DNA of 64,000 nt from Ruania alkalisoli. Its GTDB lineage: Bacteria; Actinomycetota; Actinomycetes; Actinomycetales; Beutenbergiaceae. Position 1 is the first letter of the stretch. The number at the start of each line of letters is the position of its first letter. Below are positions 4,060 to 50,712 of this stretch, piece after piece. The position numbers and the translations under genes were made by a program. The notes under the pieces are model-generated. The model saw nothing but the letters and a program-made list of their open reading frames with translations. It was not told the origin of the DNA and ran no database searches. The DNA lies in contig NZ_CP063169.1 in the NCBI RefSeq assembly GCF_014960965.1, forward strand, positions 1,645,581 to 1,709,580, read 5' to 3'.

Positions 4060-5055
4060 ATGGCGACCATCGGCTACGCGGCGGCACTGGAGCAGCTGCA
4101 CCCGAGAGACGCCGTCGGCCTCGCGCAGACGGCGGAACGCCACGGTCTCACCGGCGTCATGGCCACCGACGTGATGCAGCCGTGGGTGCCTGCACAAGGG
4201 CAGGCGAGTTTCGTGTGGAACGTGCTGACCGCCGTCGCGGAGCGAACGCAGGGTGATATCGGACCGGGCGTGGCCGTGCCGACGTTCCGTTGGCACCCGG
4301 CCGTGCTTGCGCAGGCAAGCGCCACCCTGGCTGCCATGTATCCGGGACGGCACTGGCTCGGTGTCGGCTCAGGTGAGGCGATCAACGAGCACGCGGTGGG
4401 CCGGTACTGGCCGGAGGCACCGGAGCGGATCAACCGGATGTTCGAGGCGATCGATATCATCACCAAGTTGCTTAGCAACTCCCTGGCGGGGAAGGACTAC
4501 AAGCACTCGGGGGAATTCTTCCGGATGGAGTCCACGCGGCTGTGGACTATGCCCGAGACGGCGCCGGAGATCCTCGTGGCCACCGCGGGGCCCGTGACCG
4601 CACGACGCGCCGGACGCCTCGCCGACGGGCTGATCACCATGGGTGGACCGAGCGAGAAGGTGGCCAGGCTGTTCGACCGGTTCGCTGCCGGTGCCAGGGA
4701 TGCGGGGAAGGACCCAGCCATGATGCCGAAGGTGATTCGGCTGCACCTGAGCTGGGCACGCACCCAGGGCGAGGCGATGCGCAATGCGGTGACCGAATGG
4801 CCCAATGGGGCGATGAAGTTCTCGAAGGCGGATCTGCGCTCACCGTTCGAGGTGGCTCAGATTGCCAAGCTGATCCGGCCCGAGGACTTCTCCGGGGCCA
4901 TGGTCGTCTCGGCGGACCCGGCCGATCACCTGCGCGAGATCCAACGTTACGTCGATCTCGGTGCCAGCCGGATCTACCTGCACAATGTGGGTCGCAACCA
5001 GGACGAGTTCCTGCGTGTGTTCGGCTCCGACGTACTCCCCAAGGTGGTTCATTGA
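4060..5055 (+). CDS. F420-dependent LLM-class oxidoreductase (FGD-like)
   Basis: 331-aa TIM-barrel enzyme of the luciferase-like, coenzyme F420-dependent family (TIGR03557/FGD-like branch). The N-terminus ([12 protein letters not shown]), the GSGEAINEH segment near residues 106-114, and the [15 protein letters not shown]-terminus match F420-dependent glucose-6-phosphate dehydrogenase relatives. The reaction is hydride transfer between F420 and an organic substrate, which I cannot name; true Fgd1 uses glucose-6-phosphate. Its stop codon overlaps the ATG of a CofE-type F420 ligase by one base, which strongly supports F420 as the cofactor. ATG at 4060 starts the conserved barrel strand directly. 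The phosphate-pocket residues of Fgd1 were not checked residue by residue. Confidence 0.85.
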
Positions 5056-5789
5056 TGTTGCTCGCCCAAGCCCCCGACGGCCTCCCCGAGGTGACGTCCT
5101 CGACCGATCTCGCCGCTGCACTGACCCCGGTGCTGGGCGGACTCACGTGGCCGGACGGGTCCACGGGGCTGGCCGAAGGCGACATCGTGGTGGTTGCCTC
5201 GAAGGTGATCGCGAAGGCGGAAGGACGGCTGCGCAAGGCCGCAGACCGGGAGGCCGCGATCGATGACGAGACGGTGCGCGTGGTGGCCACCCGCGACTAC
5301 CCGGACGGGTCCACGCTCAAGATCGTCGAGAACCGGCAGGGGCTGGTGATGGCGGCCGCTGGGGTGGACACCTCCAACGTGCTTCCCGGGACGGTGCTGC
5401 TGCTGCCCGAGGATCCCGACGAATCCGCACGGGTGTTGCGTCGTGGCCTGAACGCACGCCTCGGGGTGCGACCGGGGGTGTTGGTGACCGACTCGGTGGG
5501 CCGGCCCTGGCGGCGTGGCATCGCCGACATCAGTATCGGGGCAGCGGGTATCGACGTCCTGCAGGATCTGCGCGGGCGGAAGGATGCTCAAGGGCGCGAA
5601 CTGCGGGCCACCGTGATAGCGGTGGCCGACGAGATCGCGGCCGCCGCCGACCTGGTGCGCGGCAAGACCGGCGGGCAACCGGTAGCGGTGGTGCGCGGTC
5701 TGTCTCACCTAGTCACCCTCAAGGACGGCGAGGGCGCCCACGTGGCCATCCGCCCGCCCGAAGAGGACATGTTCCGCACGGGGACCTGA
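5055..5789 (+). CDS. cofE: Coenzyme F420-0:L-glutamate ligase (CofE / FbiB N-terminal domain)
   Basis: 244-aa enzyme adding gamma-linked glutamates to F420-0 in a GTP- and metal-dependent reaction. Seen: the [17 protein letters not shown] strand-helix near the N-terminus, [19 protein letters not shown] in the centre and [13 protein letters not shown] toward the end, all hallmarks of the CofE family. Length matches stand-alone CofE; the nitroreductase-like domain fused to it in mycobacterial FbiB is absent. Translation is coupled to the upstream F420 oxidoreductase (TGATG overlap), so the two are one operon. The gene runs into a palindromic element between it and the convergent MMPL gene. Confidence 0.88.
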
Positions 5790-5797
5790 AACGCCGC

Positions 5798-5871
5798 GTC
5801 ACGAACTGACGGCGCTCAGCGCACCTGTGCCAGATGAGGCACGGTATCGCCGAGGGCCGTCAGTTCGTGAC
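5798..5871. repeat. Palindromic element, copy A (between convergent genes)
   Basis: Perfect 16-bp inverted repeat: arm GTCACGAACTGACGGC at 5798-5813 and its exact reverse complement at 5856-5871. Inside sits a second small stem, GTGCC at 5827-5831 and GGCAC at 5838-5842. It lies between the 3' ends of cofE and the MMPL gene, where it could act as a bidirectional terminator. Its right half is very similar to a second copy inside accA1 at 22444-22505, so it is more than a one-off terminator. Confidence 0.85.
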
Positions 5872-5874
5872 CCG

Positions 5875-8238
5875 TCAGGCGCGGTGCCGGCCGCCCGTGG
5901 CGCTGATCTCCTTCTCCGCACCGGCCGACGTCTCGCGCGAGGCAGTCGCTGCCAGGGACTGCACGAGCTTGTCGCCCTCGACGTCCAGGTTCGGCAGGAT
6001 CTTCTCGAGCCAGCGTGGCAGCCACCACGCCTTCTCCCCGGCGATGGCCATCACCGCAGGGATGAGCGTCATCCGCACCACGAAGGCGTCGAAGAGGATG
6101 CCGATGGCGAGGGCGAAGCCGATCTGCTTGATCATCGCGTCGTGGGCGAAGATGAAGCCCGCGAACACCGAGACCATGATCACCGCAGCGGCGAGCACCA
6201 CTCGGGCGGCGAGCTGGTAGCCGTGCACCACCCCACGCACTCCCGGGTGGCCGTGCACGTGCGACTCGCGTATGGATGACACCAAGAACACCTGGTAGTC
6301 CATCGCCAGCCCGTAGAGGATCCCGGTGATGATGATCGGTAGGAAGCTCAGCAGCGGTCCGGGAGTGTCGAAGCCGAACAGCTCCTTCGCCCAGCCCCAC
6401 TGAAACACCGCGGTGGTGGCCCCCAGGGTGGCGAGAATGCTGAGCACGAAGCCGAGCGTCGCCGTCACGGGCACAAAGATCGACCGGAACACCAGCAGCA
6501 GGATGATCAGCGAGAGCGCCACGATCACCGCGAGATAGGGGATCAGCGCGTCGGAGAGCACCTGTGACATGTCGATGTTGATGGCGGTCACGCCGGTCAC
6601 GCCCAGCTCGGAGCTGCCCAGGTTGCTCATGCCGTCCAGATCGAGGTCGCGGATCTCGGTCACCAGGTCCGCGGTGGTCTCGTCGTTCGGGCCCGCGTCG
6701 GGCACGACCGTCAGCGTCAGCAGCGTGCCGTCCTCGGACTGCCCGGAGGGCATGACGGCGCTCGCACCGGCCAGATCGAGCAACTCCGCCTTGAGCGTCG
6801 CGACATCGTCCGGGGTGTAGGCCTCCCCGGACTCGGCAACGACGAGCAGCGGGGCGTTGAACCCCTCCCCGAAGCCTTCGGTGAGGGCGTCGTAGCTTTG
6901 CCGCTCCACCGTGTCCTGGTTCGCAGTTCCGGCCGAGGGGAGGTTGAGCTGCATACTGGCGAACGGCGCGGCGATCACGCCCAGGCCGAGTACGACGGCG
7001 ACCGTCACCCATGCCTTGTGGCGCACCAGTCCGGTGGCCCAGCGGGTGGCCGGGCCGGGCCGGTCGATCTCGTCGGTGTCCGCCTCGGCGGCCCGACGTC
7101 GCTGCTTGGCGGTGACCAGGCGCTCTCCGACCAGTCCGAGGATGGCTGGCAGCAGCGTCAGGGCGACGGTCACCGCGATGGCCACGGTTCCGGCGGCGAT
7201 GAGGGCCATGATGGTCAGGAACTCCACACCCACCACGGACAGGCCGCTCAGGGCGATGATCACCGTGAGGCCGGCGAAGAACACAGCACTCCCGGCCGTC
7301 CCGACCGCGCGCGCAGTCGCCTCCCGGGCGCTCAGGCCCTGATCGAGAACGAAGCGCCGGGCGCGGTTGACGAGGAAGAGCGCGTAGTCGATGCCGACGG
7401 CCAGCCCGATCATGAGTGCCAGTACCGGCGTGATCGAGGTCATCGGGATGAGGGTTGAGAGAGCGTAGGCGCTCCCAACTCCCACCCCGACGCCGATGAT
7501 CGCGGTGATGAGCGGCAGCCCGGCGACGACGAGGGAACCGAGAGTCAGGATCAGCACGATCGCCGCGACCACGAGCCCGACGATCTCGTTGGACCCGATC
7601 GGAGACTCGAACGTCTGCGTCAGACTCTCCGAAGGCAGCACGGTCAGTCCGGCTGACTCGGCGGTCTCGGCGGCCGCGACGATCTCGTCCGCAGCACCCT
7701 CGGGCAGGTCGAGCACCTGGTCGGTCAGCTGCACCGTCAGCATGGCGATCGAGCCGTCCGCGGAGGTGATCACCCCGGCCACCGGTGCCTCGCCGTCCAT
7801 CAGGGGCAGCAGCTCGAGGTCACCGGCGGGTGCGAAGGCGTCCGCTGCGGCCTGCGCTGCGGCGGCCTCGTCTTCGGTCATGGTGCTCGGGTCGGCCTGC
7901 TGTGACCCGGTCTCCGGCTGGACGACGATATCGCTGTCGTTGATCTCGGTCACGGCGCCGGCGATCGCGGCGACGGCCCCGGGATCATCGACGCGTTCTC
8001 CCTCGGGTGCGGTGAACACGATCGTCGCCTGGGCGCCGGCGGCGCTGGGCATCTCCTCGTCCAGCTGGTCGAGGACTTCCTGGGCCGGGGTCCCGTCGAT
8101 GCGGAACTCGGTCGACATCTGGGGCGGGTTGAGAGCTAGGGCGCCGCCGACGATCGCGAGCAGCACGACCCAGACGGCGATCACCCGCCAGCGTGCGCGG
8201 TAGGCGAAGGCGCCGAGACGGTACAGGAGAGTGGACAA
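5875..8238 (-). CDS. MMPL/RND-family membrane transporter
   Basis: 787-aa inner-membrane exporter of the MMPL branch of the RND superfamily. It has a first membrane helix near residues 18-38, a large extracytoplasmic loop, a cluster of five to six helices (VGLVVAAIVLILTLGSLVV onward), then a repeat of the same plan in the C-terminal half, as expected for the duplicated RND fold. The GIDYALFLVNRARR motif in the first half and GLAMDYQVFLVSSIRE in the second are the conserved Asp/Tyr proton-relay helices. The start is TTG at 8238 with an AAGGGAA ribosome binding site 8 bases upstream. It follows a TetR gene by about 50 bp on the same strand, so it is probably a repressed drug or lipid exporter. 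The substrate is unknown. Confidence 0.9.
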   Translation of the reverse strand: MSTLLYRLGAFAYRARWRVIAVWVVLLAIVGGALALNPPQMSTEFRIDGTPAQEVLDQLDEEMPSAAGAQATIVFTAPEGERVDDPGAVAAIAGAVTEINDSDIVVQPETGSQQADPSTMTEDEAAAAQAAADAFAPAGDLELLPLMDGEAPVAGVITSADGSIAMLTVQLTDQVLDLPEGAADEIVAAAETAESAGLTVLPSESLTQTFESPIGSNEIVGLVVAAIVLILTLGSLVVAGLPLITAIIGVGVGVGSAYALSTLIPMTSITPVLALMIGLAVGIDYALFLVNRARRFVLDQGLSAREATARAVGTAGSAVFFAGLTVIIALSGLSVVGVEFLTIMALIAAGTVAIAVTVALTLLPAILGLVGERLVTAKQRRRAAEADTDEIDRPGPATRWATGLVRHKAWVTVAVVLGLGVIAAPFASMQLNLPSAGTANQDTVERQSYDALTEGFGEGFNAPLLVVAESGEAYTPDDVATLKAELLDLAGASAVMPSGQSEDGTLLTLTVVPDAGPNDETTADLVTEIRDLDLDGMSNLGSSELGVTGVTAINIDMSQVLSDALIPYLAVIVALSLIILLLVFRSIFVPVTATLGFVLSILATLGATTAVFQWGWAKELFGFDTPGPLLSFLPIIITGILYGLAMDYQVFLVSSIRESHVHGHPGVRGVVHGYQLAARVVLAAAVIMVSVFAGFIFAHDAMIKQIGFALAIGILFDAFVVRMTLIPAVMAIAGEKAWWLPRWLEKILPNLDVEGDKLVQSLAATASRETSAGAEKEISATGGRHRA

Positions 8239-12033: not shown

Positions 12034-13208
12034 GAGTTTCCCCGGTTGCGTAGCAGCAGCCAGGCGAACACCGGCGCCCCGATCGCGGCCGTGAGGATGC
12101 CCACGGGGACTTCAGACGGTTCGAAGATCGTTCGCGCCCCGGTATCGGCCCACACGAGGAAGACGGCTCCGCCCAGCGCGGCCAGCGGCAGCAACCGCAC
12201 GTGCCGTGCGCCCACCAGCAGGCGCACCACGTGCGGCAGCACCAGGCCCACGAAGCCGATCGATCCGCTGACGCTCACCAGGGCACCGGTGAGCAACGCC
12301 GTCAGAGTCAGCAGCAGCCACCGGGTGCGCGGTACGTGCACGCCGAGGGAGGTGGCTGCCGTGTCGCCGAAGGCGAAGGCGTCCAGGCTGCGCCCGTGCG
12401 CGAGCACCAGCGCCCCGATGATCACGACGGCGGCCCCTGAGATGGCCACGGACGTCCAGGTGGCCGCTGCGAGGGAGCCCATCAGCCAGTTGATGATCTC
12501 CCGGTAGGAGTCACCCTGGGCGGTGGAGAAGATCACGAAGGAGACCAGCGCCGAGCAGGCCTGGGCCACGGCGATCCCGGCCAGGATGGTGCGTGCCGGT
12601 GTGAGCCGGCCACCGATCCCGGCCAGGGCGAGTGTGGCGCCGAGGGCGAGGAGGGCGCCGGCGAAGGCAGCGATGGGCAGGGCGATGGCGACGCCCAGCA
12701 GCAGTACCGCCACAGCACCGAGTGCGGCTCCGGAGGAGACCCCGAGCAGATACGGATCGGCCAGCGGGTTGCGGGTGATCGCCTGCATCACCGCACCGCA
12801 CAGCGCCAGGCCCGCGCCGACGCAGGTCGCGGTGAGCAGCCGGGGGGCGCGCCCCTGCCACACGATCGCGTCGCGGATGGTGGTGAGCGGGTTCTCGGCC
12901 GGGGTGATCGGGACACCGCGCTCGGCGAGCCAGGTGAGGCTGTGGTGCCAGGCGCTGCCGAGCACGTCGGCCGGGGTGATCGCCGCCGGGCCGATGGTCA
13001 GCGCGATCAGCACCGACCCCAGCAACAGGCCGAGCCCGAGCAGGATCCATAGGCCTAGGCTTCCGCGTCCCGGGGTGGGCGTAGGCGGTCGGGGATCCGT
13101 GGGCGCCGGGGCAGCGATGGCCGGAGCCACCCCCTCCTCGCGCACCGGGGCGGACCGGCGATCCTCGGAGGTTCGCCGGTCCGTCCTGGTGGTGCCGGGG
13201 CTGGTCAC
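12030..13208 (-). CDS. FecCD-family ABC importer permease
   Basis: 392-aa permease of the FecCD/BtuC family, which normally works as a homodimer with about ten helices per subunit. Seen: a hydrophilic, Pro-rich N-terminal extension of about 45 residues before the first helix (LWILLGLGLLLGSVLIALTIG), the APRLLTATCVGAGLALCGAVMQAITRNPLADPYLLG block that defines the family, and the GSIGFVGLVLPHVVRL coupling region that contacts the ATPase. The GTG start overlaps the binding-protein stop (GTGA). A single permease gene implies a homodimeric channel. Confidence 0.92.
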   Translation of the reverse strand: MTSPGTTRTDRRTSEDRRSAPVREEGVAPAIAAPAPTDPRPPTPTPGRGSLGLWILLGLGLLLGSVLIALTIGPAAITPADVLGSAWHHSLTWLAERGVPITPAENPLTTIRDAIVWQGRAPRLLTATCVGAGLALCGAVMQAITRNPLADPYLLGVSSGAALGAVAVLLLGVAIALPIAAFAGALLALGATLALAGIGGRLTPARTILAGIAVAQACSALVSFVIFSTAQGDSYREIINWLMGSLAAATWTSVAISGAAVVIIGALVLAHGRSLDAFAFGDTAATSLGVHVPRTRWLLLTLTALLTGALVSVSGSIGFVGLVLPHVVRLLVGARHVRLLPLAALGGAVFLVWADTGARTIFEPSEVPVGILTAAIGAPVFAWLLLRNRGNS

Positions 13209-19288: not shown

Positions 19289-20905
19289 ATGACGATTCTG
19301 ACCAGCGCCGCAGACCCGGCGAGCTCGGAGTTCACCACCAACGACGCGACCCAGCGCGCCCTGGCAGCCGAGCTGACCGAACGGCTCGCCAGGGTAGCCC
19401 GCGGGGGGCCGGAGCGGTCTCGGCAGCGGCACACCGACCGGGGCAAGCTGCTGCCGCGGGATCGGATCACCACCCTGCTCGACCCCGGCAGCCCGTTCCT
19501 GGAGATCGCGCCACTGGCGGCCTGGGATCTCTACGACGGTGAATGCCCGGCTGCCGGAGTGGTCGCCGGCATCGGCATGGTCCACGGCAGGCAGGTGCTC
19601 GTGATCGCCAACGACGCCACCGTCAAGGGCGGCACGTACTACCCACTCACGGTCAAGAAGCACCTGCGCGCCCAGCAGATCGCCCTGGAGAACCAGCTCC
19701 CGTGCCTGTACCTCGTCGACTCAGGCGGCGCCTACCTGCCGATGCAGGACGAGGTCTTTCCCGATGAGCAGCACTTCGGGCGCATCTTCGCCAACCAGGC
19801 CCGCATGTCCGCCGCCGGGATCCCGCAGCTGGCCGCCGTGCTCGGGTCCTGTACTGCAGGCGGCGCCTATGTGCCCGCCATGAGCGACGAGACCGTGATC
19901 GTGGGCGGCCAGGGCACGATCTTCCTGGGCGGTCCGCCGCTGGTGAAGGCAGCCATCGGAGAAGAGGTCAGCGCCGAGGATCTCGGCGGCGGGGAACTGC
20001 ATGCCCGTACGTCCGGGGTGGTGGACCACCTGGCTGACGACGACGCCCACGCCCTGCGGATCCTGCGCGACATCGTCGCCACCCTGCCGCCACCGCCGCC
20101 GCGGGTGTGGGACGTCGCTCCACCGCGAGAACCCGCAGTGCGGGCCGACGAGATCTACGGGGTGGCGCCCACCGACCTGCAGGCGGCCAGCGACCCGCGC
20201 GAGGTCATCGCCCGTCTCGTGGACAGTTCCGAACTGCAGGAGTTCAAGGCCGCCTACGGCACCACCCTCGTGACCGGATTCGCCCGCATCCACGGTCATC
20301 GGGTGGGCATCGTGGCCAATGACGGCGTGCTGCTGAGCGAGTCGGCACTCAAGGGCACCCACTTCATCGAGCTGTGCGACCAGCGCGGCATCCCGCTGCT
20401 GTTCCTGCAGAACATCTCCGGCTTCCTCGTGGGCCGCGAGGCCGAAGCGGGCGGTATCGCCAAACACGGCGCGAAGATGGTCACCGCCGTGGCCACCACC
20501 CGGGTCCCGAAACTGACCGTGATCACCGGCGGATCCTTCGGTGCCGGCAACTACTCTATGTGCGGACGTGCCTACGGGCCCCGGTTCCTGTGGATGTGGC
20601 CCGGAGCGCGGATCTCGGTGATGGGCGGACGTCAGGCCGCCGCCGTGCTCGGCACCGTCCGCGCCGACCAGGCCGCTTCCCGCGGCGAGGACTGGCCCGC
20701 CCACGAGCGGGAGGCGTTCGAGGCACCGATCCGTGAGCAGTACGAGCGCCAGGGCAACCCGTACTACGCCACCGCGCGGCTGTGGGACGACGGCATCATC
20801 GACCCCGCCCAGACTCGCACCGTGCTCGGGCTCGCGCTGGACGTGTGCTCTCGCGTGCCGCTGCCCGATCTGTCCGAATCTCGCTTCGGCATGTTCCGGA
20901 TGTGA
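19289..20905 (+). CDS. accD1: 3-methylcrotonyl-CoA carboxylase-type beta subunit (carboxyltransferase)
   Basis: 538-aa carboxyltransferase subunit that moves the carboxyl group from biotin to an acyl-CoA. Crotonase-like N and C domains are both present: [16 protein letters not shown] with the acyl-CoA oxyanion glycines, and [20 protein letters not shown] followed by [13 protein letters not shown] in the C domain. That latter block is characteristic of methylcrotonyl-CoA rather than acetyl/propionyl-CoA carboxylases. ATG at 19289 with GGAGAG upstream. First gene of a five-gene operon whose order equals Mycobacterium tuberculosis accD1-accA1-fadE19-Rv2499c-Rv2498c as I recall it, which supports leucine/isovalerate breakdown. 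Propionyl-CoA activity is not excluded. Confidence 0.9.
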
Positions 20906-20916
20906 AGGGAGCCTCC

Positions 20917-22911
20917 GTGTTCACGTCCGTCCTCATCGCCAACCGCGGCGAGATCGCCATCCGCATCGCCCGCACGCTCCGGCGGATGGGAATCCGTTCC
21001 GTCGCCGTGTACTCCGACCCCGACGACGGCGCAGCGCACGTCCGGGCCGCCGACCTCGCCGTCCGGATCGGACCCGCTCCGGCGGCACAGTCGTACCTGG
21101 ATGTGGCCGCGATCATCGAGGCTGCGCGCCGGACCGGAGCCCAGGCCGTGCACCCTGGGTACGGCTTCCTCAGCGAGAGCCCGGAGCTTGCGCGCGCCTG
21201 CGCCGACGCCGGGCTGGTGTTCATCGGGCCGGGCCCGGCGGCACTGGAACTGATGGGCAGCAAGATTCGGGCGAAGGCGCACGTCGCCGAGGCGGGTGTG
21301 CCGGTGATCGAGGGGGTCAGCGAACTGGACGAGGACCTCCTCACCGCAGCGGCGCACCTGGGCCCGCCCTTGCTCGTCAAACCCTCCGCTGGCGGCGGTG
21401 GGAAAGGGATGCAGGTTGTCCGCGACCTCACCGATCTACCGGAGGCGCTCGCGACTGCCCGTCGCATCGCCCGCGCGGCCTTCGGGGATGAGGCGCTGCT
21501 GGTGGAACGGTTCGTCGACGCCCCCCGCCACATCGAGATCCAGGTGCTGGCCGACGCCCACGGCCACGTCCTGAGCCTGGGCGAGCGGGAGTGCTCGCTG
21601 CAACGCCGCCATCAGAAGGTCATCGAGGAGGCTCCCTCACCGTTGCTGACCGAGACCACCCGGCAGCGGATGAGCGATGCCGCGGTCGCCGTGGCCGAGA
21701 GCGTGGGGTACCAAGGCGCCGGAACGGTGGAGTTCCTCGTGCCCGCCGCGAACCCGGACGCCTTCGCCTTCATGGAGATGAACACCCGCCTCCAGGTGGA
21801 GCACCCCGTCACCGAAGCGGTCACGGGTCTGGACCTGGTGGAGTGGCAGGTGCGCATCGCCGCCGGCGAACCGTTCGAGCCGGACCTGGACCGGGCGGTG
21901 GAGGGACATGCGATCGAGGCGCGGATCTACGCCGAACGTCCGGACTCCGGCTTCCTCCCGGCGACCGGAACCGCCGCAGTGGTGCGCTGGCCGGACGAGG
22001 TGCGCGTCGATCACGCACTGACGGAGGGCACGGTGGTCGCAACCGAGTACGACCCGATGCTGGCGAAGGTGATCGCCCACGCTGACACGCGTGCCGACGC
22101 CCTGGCGCGGCTGGACCGGGCGCTCGCGGACACCGTGATCTTCGGGGTCGAGACGAACGTGGACTACCTGCGGCGGCTGCTGGCCCACCGGGACGTACGC
22201 GCCGGCACCGCCGACACGACGTTGCTGGACGGGCTCACCATCACCCAGCAGCACACGCCGGACGAGGCACTGATCGCTGCAGCCCTGGCGCGGCATGCAC
22301 ACGCCTGGACGGACGAGCTCTGGCGCCGGCCGTCAGGATGGCGGCTCGGTGCCGACCAGCCCGTCATCTATGCCTTCGCTGCGGGCACCGTCTCAATATC
22401 CGGCCCTCCGGAGCGCGCGCTGGTCGCGGTCGGGGACACAACCGACGGCCTGCAGCGACTCTGTGCCATATCTGGCACGGTGTCGCTGCAGGCCGTCAGT
22501 TCGTGTGCGCTGGTCCTCGACGGCATGAGCACTGGTGTGGACGTGTTGCTCGCGCCGGCCGCCACCTGGGTGCGGTGGGATGGCCGGACGTGGGGTCTCG
22601 ATCACCACGATCCGGACGCGAGCACCGCGATGTCGGCAGGGGTGAGCGACCCCCAGCTGCGCACCCCGATGCCGGGGACCGTGGTTGCCGTGCACGCCGC
22701 TGCTGGCGACTGGGTCGAGGCAGGAGACCGCATCGTCACGGTCGAGGCGATGAAGATGGAATTCCCGCTGCGCGCCGGCCGCGCCGGTACGATCACCATC
22801 GACGTCGTCGTCGGTGACCAGGTCACATCCGGCCAGGTGCTCGCCGCCGTCACCGGCCCTGAGGGTTCACAAGACCCGCGAGGGCCGAGCGCAACGATCC
22901 ACAAGATCTGA
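20917..22911 (+). CDS. accA1: Acyl-CoA carboxylase alpha subunit (biotin carboxylase + BCCP)
   Basis: 664-aa biotin-dependent carboxylase alpha chain. It starts at GTG 20917 behind AAGGGAG. Domains: biotin carboxylase, residues 1-450 (IANRGEIAIRI start, GGGGKGMQVV ATP-grasp loop, EMNTRLQVEHPVTE active site), a linking region of about 100 residues, and a C-terminal biotinyl domain with VEAMKMEFPL (biotinylated Lys). Partner of the preceding AccD1; together they probably carboxylate 3-methylcrotonyl-CoA. Oddity: the linking region contains a palindromic element (22444-22505), which encodes about 20 residues (TDGLQRLCAISG and on) in frame and closely matches an intergenic copy at 5798-5871. Confidence 0.92.
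   Translation: MFTSVLIANRGEIAIRIARTLRRMGIRSVAVYSDPDDGAAHVRAADLAVRIGPAPAAQSYLDVAAIIEAARRTGAQAVHPGYGFLSESPELARACADAGLVFIGPGPAALELMGSKIRAKAHVAEAGVPVIEGVSELDEDLLTAAAHLGPPLLVKPSAGGGGKGMQVVRDLTDLPEALATARRIARAAFGDEALLVERFVDAPRHIEIQVLADAHGHVLSLGERECSLQRRHQKVIEEAPSPLLTETTRQRMSDAAVAVAESVGYQGAGTVEFLVPAANPDAFAFMEMNTRLQVEHPVTEAVTGLDLVEWQVRIAAGEPFEPDLDRAVEGHAIEARIYAERPDSGFLPATGTAAVVRWPDEVRVDHALTEGTVVATEYDPMLAKVIAHADTRADALARLDRALADTVIFGVETNVDYLRRLLAHRDVRAGTADTTLLDGLTITQQHTPDEALIAAALARHAHAWTDELWRRPSGWRLGADQPVIYAFAAGTVSISGPPERALVAVGDTTDGLQRLCAISGTVSLQAVSSCALVLDGMSTGVDVLLAPAATWVRWDGRTWGLDHHDPDASTAMSAGVSDPQLRTPMPGTVVAVHAAAGDWVEAGDRIVTVEAMKMEFPLRAGRAGTITIDVVVGDQVTSGQVLAAVTGPEGSQDPRGPSATIHKI
22444..22505. repeat. 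Palindromic element, copy B (in frame inside accA1)
   Basis: Perfect 16-bp inverted repeat: arm GACGGCCTGCAGCGAC at 22444-22459 and its reverse complement at 22482-22497, with an inner stem GTGCCA/TGGCAC (22463-22468 and 22473-22478). From CTGTGCCA through GGCCGTCAGTTCGTG it aligns with copy A (5798-5871) without gaps, with only a handful of differences. It falls between the biotin carboxylase and biotinyl domains and keeps the frame open. Confidence 0.85.
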
Positions 22912-50615: not shown

Positions 50616-50633
50616 ACGCAGGTGTCAGGGCAT

Positions 50634-50702
50634 GCCATCGGGGTGCCAGTCGTGGCCCATTCTCCGCACTCGCGGACGGGCCAGGACTGGCACCCCGATG
50701 GC
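50634..50702. terminator. Long bidirectional terminator-like hairpin
   Basis: A perfect 18-bp inverted repeat: GCCATCGGGGTGCCAGTC at 50634-50651 and its reverse complement at 50685-50702. The pairing continues inward (TGGCCC at 50653-50658 with GGGCCA at 50678-50683). It sits exactly between convergent genes (stop 50615 and stop 50713). No T-tract on either strand. Confidence 0.75.
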
Positions 50703-50712
50703 GTGTGCCTCG

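Follow-up and report, generated by a model that had tools for sequence, protein, structure and literature searches.

A palindromic repeat family of Ruania with copies between genes and in frame within accA1 and an hrpA-like gene

The complete genome of Ruania alkalisoli (G000; 4,448,695 bp, dnaA at 449) carries about 27 copies of a palindrome, here called family I, of which 25 are full and two are split by an insertion sequence (IS). Family I has been found so far only in Ruania; most of its copies lie between genes, and two are read in frame within protein-coding genes. We favor, with moderate confidence, the view that its members, palindromic repeats of about 76 bp, are non-autonomous and work like the Rickettsia palindromic elements (RPE). 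Two of the copies, A and B, lie in the window, a stretch of 64,000 nucleotides (G000:C1:1645581-1709580) to which all positions without a contig or locus refer. The other Ruania genomes are denoted G001 to G007.

Table 1. Coordinates of copies A and B, the adjoining genes, and the two IS-split copies.
Feature	Position	Strand	Description
cofE-containing gene	4542..5789	+	stops just before copy A; F420_cofE 212.6 bits (cut-off 180.65); start is the ORF start
Copy A	5797..5872	.	76-bp palindromic element, fills the gap of two convergent genes; G000:C1:1651377-1651452, model E 1.8e-16
MMPL-like transporter gene	5875..8238	-	3' end adjoins copy A; its family matches fall short of the curated cut-offs
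accA1	20902..22911	+	biotin carboxylase, BT and biotinyl domains; carries copy B in frame; start 20902 chosen
Copy B	22433..22508	.	76-bp palindromic element in accA1, translated as DTTDGLQRLCAISGTVSLQAVSSC (codons 512-535); G000:C1:1668013-1668088, E 7.7e-17
IS30-split copies	L069:3800-5140; L068:2700-4070		G000:C1 ~611.3-612.6 kb; 3508.7-3510.1 kb

Results

Copies A and B and the genome-wide family

Both palindromes of a preliminary description of this DNA were found at their places, but the extents given there (5798-5871 and 22444-22505) were too short, the true ones being about 5797-5872 and 22433-22508. In an inverted-repeat scan copy A is the longest inverted repeat of the window (37-nt arms, 81% complementary) and copy B the third entry (29-nt arms, 90% complementary). 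Their folding energies are -57.8 kcal/mol (z -8.35) and -59.4 kcal/mol (z -9.79), and in neither case was any of 200 shuffles as low. The gapless identity between them, estimated by eye at about 38 of 45 positions, is exactly that when counted, from CTGTGCCA to GGCCGTCAGTTCGTG, and a genome-wide search using copy A finds copy B at E 2.2e-9, along with many other copies. The outer arms had been thought to differ between the two copies; changes in the arms do keep complementarity, yet the homology spans the whole unit of about 76 bp, outer arms included, and copy B retains CACAACCGACGG..CCGTCAGTTCGTG of these arms as copy A does. A scan with the core gave three matches in the window against 0.14 expected, two of them coming from copy B, which is matched on both strands. 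As an exact word, the outer CCGTCAGTTCGTG has three occurrences genome-wide, all of them in copies A and B, so that the family would be missed by that word alone.

A covariance model run over the whole genome, as the preliminary description had proposed, revealed a multi-copy family: 25 full copies at E < 1e-12, with the next match at 0.01. The model was built from 24 of these 25 copies, which therefore match by construction, and 150 of 5677 candidates were scored; among these, no decayed copies were seen between E 1e-12 and 0.01, an absence that would be unusual if the copies were dead selfish DNA. All 24 copies of equal length align without gaps about one centre, with the blocks ACGG, GCC and GGCAC invariant and an approximate one-arm consensus of GGnACAnAACTGACGGCCCTCAGCGnnTCCGTGCCAnA, after which the mirrored arm follows. 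Standard pairs fill 77.8% of cells, compared with 73.2% in shuffles and 32-38% when the register is slid, and the covariation score is 0.209 against 0.142, with 0/500 shuffles reaching 0.209, although kin copies inflate such values. The copies are never near-identical (best pair 65/76, median 51). Paired changes in the arms, read earlier as selection on, or copying of, the hairpin, are thus present; selection need not follow from them, because template-switch correction of imperfect palindromes gives the same pattern.

Two further copies are split exactly at the palindrome centre by a 1.3-kb insertion of the IS30 family, which leaves the central four bases in duplicate (CATA and AATG); the transposase of one of the two, the copy tested, scores 260.7 bits with NF033563 (cut-off 80). 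IS30 was considered as the parent of a MITE and rejected, because its ends (GGCGGTGTCA) are unrelated to the element and because its insertion is internal to the element, whose centre shows a 4-bp duplication. Terminal inverted repeats, a MITE trait, are present in that the whole element is a dyad; as to a parent transposon, the two half-element pairs that were followed enclose IS30 with its unrelated ends. At L069:2960-5140 a 218-aa gene, which by eye resembles an MBL-fold hydrolase, lies together with the IS between two family I copies; the counterpart in G006 has a single element between the same outer flanks, as might result from recombination of the copies. An apparent left-over IS end is seen in G006 (L245) at the orthologous copy of an IS30-split site.

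Copies within accA1 and an hrpA-like gene

The earlier statement that accA1 reads the element in frame, as DTTDGLQRLCAISGTVSLQAVSSC, was borne out. Its placement between two domains is correct insofar as the element lies between the carboxylase and biotinyl domains, but it is inside the BT domain (Pfam BT_MCC_alpha, residues 453-571), where it forms residues 512-535. In the AlphaFold model of AccA1 the element is a loop of this domain between the strands 507-511 and 535-539, modeled with low confidence (block pLDDT 54, 48 and 65); 14 of 17 orthologs were used for folding, three with stops being left out. The proposed gain of about 20 residues was not upheld: the segment measures 35-37 residues in the four element-bearing orthologs and 1-56 (median 27) in 32 others, and given this spread an insertion in accA1 cannot be claimed. 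A palindrome is present at the corresponding codons in Ruania rhizosphaerae LNNU 22110 (G006), whose AccA1 is the nearest named one at 94%, as well as in G004 and G002, with model E values of 1.4e-16, 1.7e-5 and, weakly, 0.155. Copy B is therefore not a recent entry. By eye, its 16-bp arms are perfect in G000 and carry two mismatches in the G006 ortholog.

The second in-gene copy lies in a gene for an hrpA-like helicase (TIGR01967 627 bits for a fragment, short of the cut-off of 722.75; DUF3418 above its cut-off), which reads it as DTTDGPRRLRALSGTEFPRAVSSV in the frame of the accA1 copy, so that the two share the peptide DTTDG...AVSS. Of the 50 strand readings of the 25 G000 copies, 42 leave this frame open, against 33 and 12 for the other frames; with only two in-gene family I sites and two frames often open, the sharing could be chance (roughly 0.2-0.3). 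Between PALVDE and V.L.VLTD the protein has 25 residues in G000, G006 and G001, and three in G003, G005 and G007; these last three are among 25 orthologs without family I or III, in which the median is 8 (range 3-27). From the protein lengths, an insertion of element codons in hrpA is supported. The loop also varies in length by other means, since two orthologs from other genera have 24 and 27 residues without the element. The hrpA site without family I is not a clean empty site. No clean target-site duplication was seen; the two changed sites compared with G006 are not empty there.

Position relative to genes and to the origin

According to a home-made gene caller, the 25 G000 copies occupy 12 convergent, 9 tandem and 2 divergent gaps, and two are in genes. 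Convergent gaps hold 12 of the 23 intergenic copies but only 21 of 152 background gaps (p 1.5e-5), and tandem gaps are rarer than in the background (9/23 vs 108/152, p 0.0018), while divergent gaps show no significant shortage (2/23 vs 23/152, p 0.56); the background comes from the window and seven further stretches, some of them chosen for holding elements. Neighboring genes often stop within a few bases of the element, which often fills the gap. At six G000 copies the gene ends at offset -13, so that its stop codon is the TGA, in one case TAA, of AACTGACGG. The copy A region has no intrinsic terminator (a stem and then a T run; 0 in 5300-6300) and no Rfam match at the gathering score. The 27 G000 sites favor the origin half, with seven in the terminus half (p 0.019; KS p 0.010), and the 21 sites of G001, the other complete genome, point in the same direction (6/21, p 0.078; KS p 0.016), although neighboring copies are not independent in these statistics.

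Distribution and change of type among Ruania genomes

A search of 99 genomes with model R1 found family I in six of eight Ruania genomes and in none of the 91 others; because 48 candidates were scored per genome, the copy numbers from it are lower bounds. A framework pattern with two mismatches allowed occurs at 23 places in G000, 23 in G006, 21 in G004, 19 in G001, four in G003, two in G002 and none in G005 or G007. It also occurs in 10 of 388 other genomes of the order, at one or two places each, as compared with 10/396 for a reversed control. Copy numbers in G002 and G003 are uncertain owing to the poor fit of their copies to the model, and neither the model nor the framework pattern gives a credible copy in G005 and G007, both draft assemblies. 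Two distant genomes of the order contain near-perfect palindromes with similar centres (L339 in G102, which holds two such copies, and L324 in G395); these are perhaps other families.

Both flanks of the 25 G000 positions match at 19 in G006, 12 in G001 and seven in G004, accA1 included. Spacers of G000 copies are more alike between orthologs than between other pairs in G006 (0.88 and 0.50, 19 pairs) and G001 (0.58 and 0.45, 12 pairs, p 0.0002). There is no excess identity between orthologs of G000 and G004 (0.40 vs 0.41, 7 pairs) or of G001 and G004 (0.32 vs 0.39, 5 pairs), so that change in place and replacement are indistinguishable at the distance of G004.

The G004 copies belong to another sequence type in which the dyad is kept, also at the seven shared positions, including accA1. 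A type score splits 70/70 examined copies of G000, G006 and G001 from 25/25 examined copies of G004, the weakest scores being 3.9 (L256) and -0.3 (L208). At seven pairs (5/72, 8/69, 10/67, 11/66, 29/48, 30/47 and 31/46) the commonest base pair is changed on both sides between the types, and the G004-type pairs at these positions are held by 11 to 21 of the 25 G004 copies. Some G004 copies were re-centred by 1-2 bases before this comparison; L287 of G004, which is not palindromic, and L224 and L225 of the seven in G002 were left out, and 20 of at least 21 copies were used for G001. Two G003 copies share AACTGACGG and GTGCCA with the G000 type, and for this reason the G004 type is probably the derived one. 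The only three identical copies are in G004 and seem to stem from duplication of a segment close to contig ends.

Other palindrome families at the same sites

Where G000 has copy A, a family I element is also present in G001, but G006, the closest relative, has a different hairpin with a perfect 20-bp stem. This hairpin is itself repeated and defines family II (GAAATCGCTCGTCGATCTGG..CCAGATCGACGAGCGATTTC; for example L343 ~7913-7970 in G006), with at least dozens of matches in G000 and G006; all 20 sampled G000 copies are intergenic. The hrpA codon that holds family I in G000 carries family III in G002 and G004, and G002 has another copy elsewhere in hrpA. Family III elements are asymmetric; they contain the CCGCACTCG motif three times, have a G-rich tail, and are in frame at both hrpA sites in G002. 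Its in-gene copies were counted as L297, L298 and L402 (G002 and G004); the underlying table of 31 rows includes both-strand repeats, an off-target second row for L415, and L418, which is upstream of the likely start. Thus at the copy A and hrpA sites a palindrome is present while its family differs between relatives. Two changed sites, those of copy A and L041, were compared between G000 and G006, and at each of them G006 has another hairpin; L060 was not located there, and for L040, L042 and L045 only one flank finds a match in G006.

The window contains a further strong inverted repeat at 50631-50705 (28-nt arms, 93%), whose loop includes CCGCACTCG and which may represent a further family, and another at 13143-13191 (24-nt arms, 88%, 1-nt loop).

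Discussion

We propose that family I spread in an ancestor of Ruania and came to lie mainly at the 3' ends of genes, where the arms can provide neighbors with their stop codons and RNA transcribed from either strand would fold into a very stable hairpin. In a few cases a copy would have entered a gene in the mostly stop-free frame and would there encode a flexible loop, as in accA1 and hrpA, and this peptide may be merely tolerated. The spread could have occurred by transposition in trans via some enzyme, and the dyad may be kept by template-switch correction, by recognition of the hairpin, or by both. In favor of the proposal are the wide E gap behind the 25 full copies, their gapless alignment, the shared open frame, the extra hrpA residues, the convergent excess, the other families at two of the sites and the low-confidence loop of the AccA1 model. 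Against it count the failure to find a mobilizing enzyme, the absence of near-identical copies in G000, of a clean target-site duplication and, among the 150 candidates scored, of decayed copies, the joint change of type at positions shared with G004, the possible chance origin of the shared frame, and the similarly long hrpA loops of two other-genus orthologs that lack the element.

Several other explanations have to be weighed against this proposal. We give practically no credence to chance hairpins of a GC-rich genome: apart from the high GC content nothing speaks for them, the E values, shuffle folding and distribution of the framework pattern contradict them, and the copy number already refutes them. 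It is quite unlikely that the copies are bidirectional transcription terminators or 3'-end mRNA stabilizers, with the in-gene copies as bystanders. The convergent bias, the gaps often filled by the element, the stable folds of copies A and B and the other strong hairpin at the copy A site of G006 would all fit such a role, yet there is no intrinsic-terminator-like site in the copy A region, two copies are in genes, divergent gaps show no significant shortage, and the sequence framework is more rigid than a terminator needs. That the dyad and its compensatory changes are kept by DNA template switching, without selection, is possible though doubtful, and is compatible with the other readings. 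The mechanism is described in the available portions of two papers (PMC6649704, PMC7202029), and the arms of copy B, perfect in G000 and mismatched in G006, are consistent with it; correction within a copy explains the symmetry of its arms, but leaves the joint type of 25 dispersed G004 copies unexplained.

The candidates for that joint type are repeated overwriting from a master copy and coevolution with a binding protein. The latter leads to a reading of the copies as dispersed sites for a putative dyad-binding protein, a chromosome organizer or recombinase, with the site coevolving with the protein, which we think unlikely. Conserved blocks at rigid spacing in all 24 aligned G000 copies, the one-sided split of types (70/70 vs 25/25) though seven positions are orthologous, the seven base pairs changed on both sides and the origin bias in both complete genomes are what such sites would lead one to expect. 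They are opposed by the palindromes of other families that G006 has in place of copy A and that G002 and G004 have at the hrpA site, the lack of a credible copy in the draft assemblies G005 and G007, the re-centring of some G004 copies, the weak terminus-half test in G001, and the lack of a candidate protein. Similarly, we think it unlikely that some 25 genus-wide sites had their code rewritten en bloc in one lineage, together with a putative protein recognizing arms and centre. In such an event the positions, even one inside a coding gene, would persist, while their letters, or in places the entire family, would be exchanged.

Family I can be compared with several known systems. The preliminary description had suggested a mobile hairpin like REPs or like the Rickettsia palindromes; the second likeness holds and the first does not. 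The RAYT search that it proposed gave no Y1_Tnp match in any of the eight Ruania genomes, with matches in 5 of 14 control genomes, and a REP/RAYT system was rejected on this ground. No mobilizing enzyme was found; the look for a trans-factor covered the genes called in clusters of elements in G001, G004 and G000, with protein starts viewed by eye. Family I is palindromic and dispersed like REPs, but it is longer and, in the alignment consensus, has neither GTAG nor CGTC at its end, CGTC lying 11 positions inside. CGTC REPs are dispersed, mostly in unidirectional or convergent gaps and sometimes in genes, in hosts that include free-living ones; the part of that source available to us names five phyla, without Actinobacteria among them (PMC3733652). 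REPs are also described, in the portion consulted, as targets of the IS3, IS110, IS4, IS256 and IS5 families (PMC1525189); family I is likewise hit, but by the IS30 family and at its exact centre.

ERIC and other small enterobacterial repeats, as far as the accessible text goes, are stem-loops of 127-168 bp with in-frame gene fusions and, for ERIC, target duplications (PMC2229807); compared by description, family I is also a small stem-loop repeat found in frame, and is shorter. In nematomorph mitochondria, according to the accessible sections of PMC6649704, coding palindromes occupy the same positions across species and their arms change in concert. Those palindromes are mostly perfect and mitochondrial, and the concerted change joins the arms of one repeat, whereas in family I the type also extends across dispersed copies.

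RPEs are portrayed, in the sections available of PMC10969869 and PMC2229807, as palindromic repeats of several families, both intergenic and in frame in unrelated genes, with a conserved peptide; protein-coding palindromes of Wolbachia are named there in the title of a reference. The parts consulted of these two papers and of PMC3733652 indicate that Rickettsia is the best-known case of in-frame coding palindromes, and that in-gene REPs and ERIC-like repeats occur in other, also free-living, bacteria. In the literature searched, which left out most subscription journals and was queried by taxon name in part, no reports for Ruania or Micrococcales were found. Like the RPEs so described, family I is palindromic and dispersed, belongs to a genus with several such families, and is in frame in unrelated genes, with both in-gene copies in the same frame (insertion supported for hrpA only). 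The likeness is one of features and not of compared letters: RPEs measure about 105-150 bp against about 76 bp, and the host of family I, unlike theirs, is a free-living high-GC actinobacterium with two in-gene sites. What Ruania adds over the known cases is an actinobacterial species series with an element-lacking site, two families in one codon, and a joint type difference, a series that would make testable the spread of such elements, their entry into genes, and the coevolution of dispersed palindromes with a DNA-binding protein.
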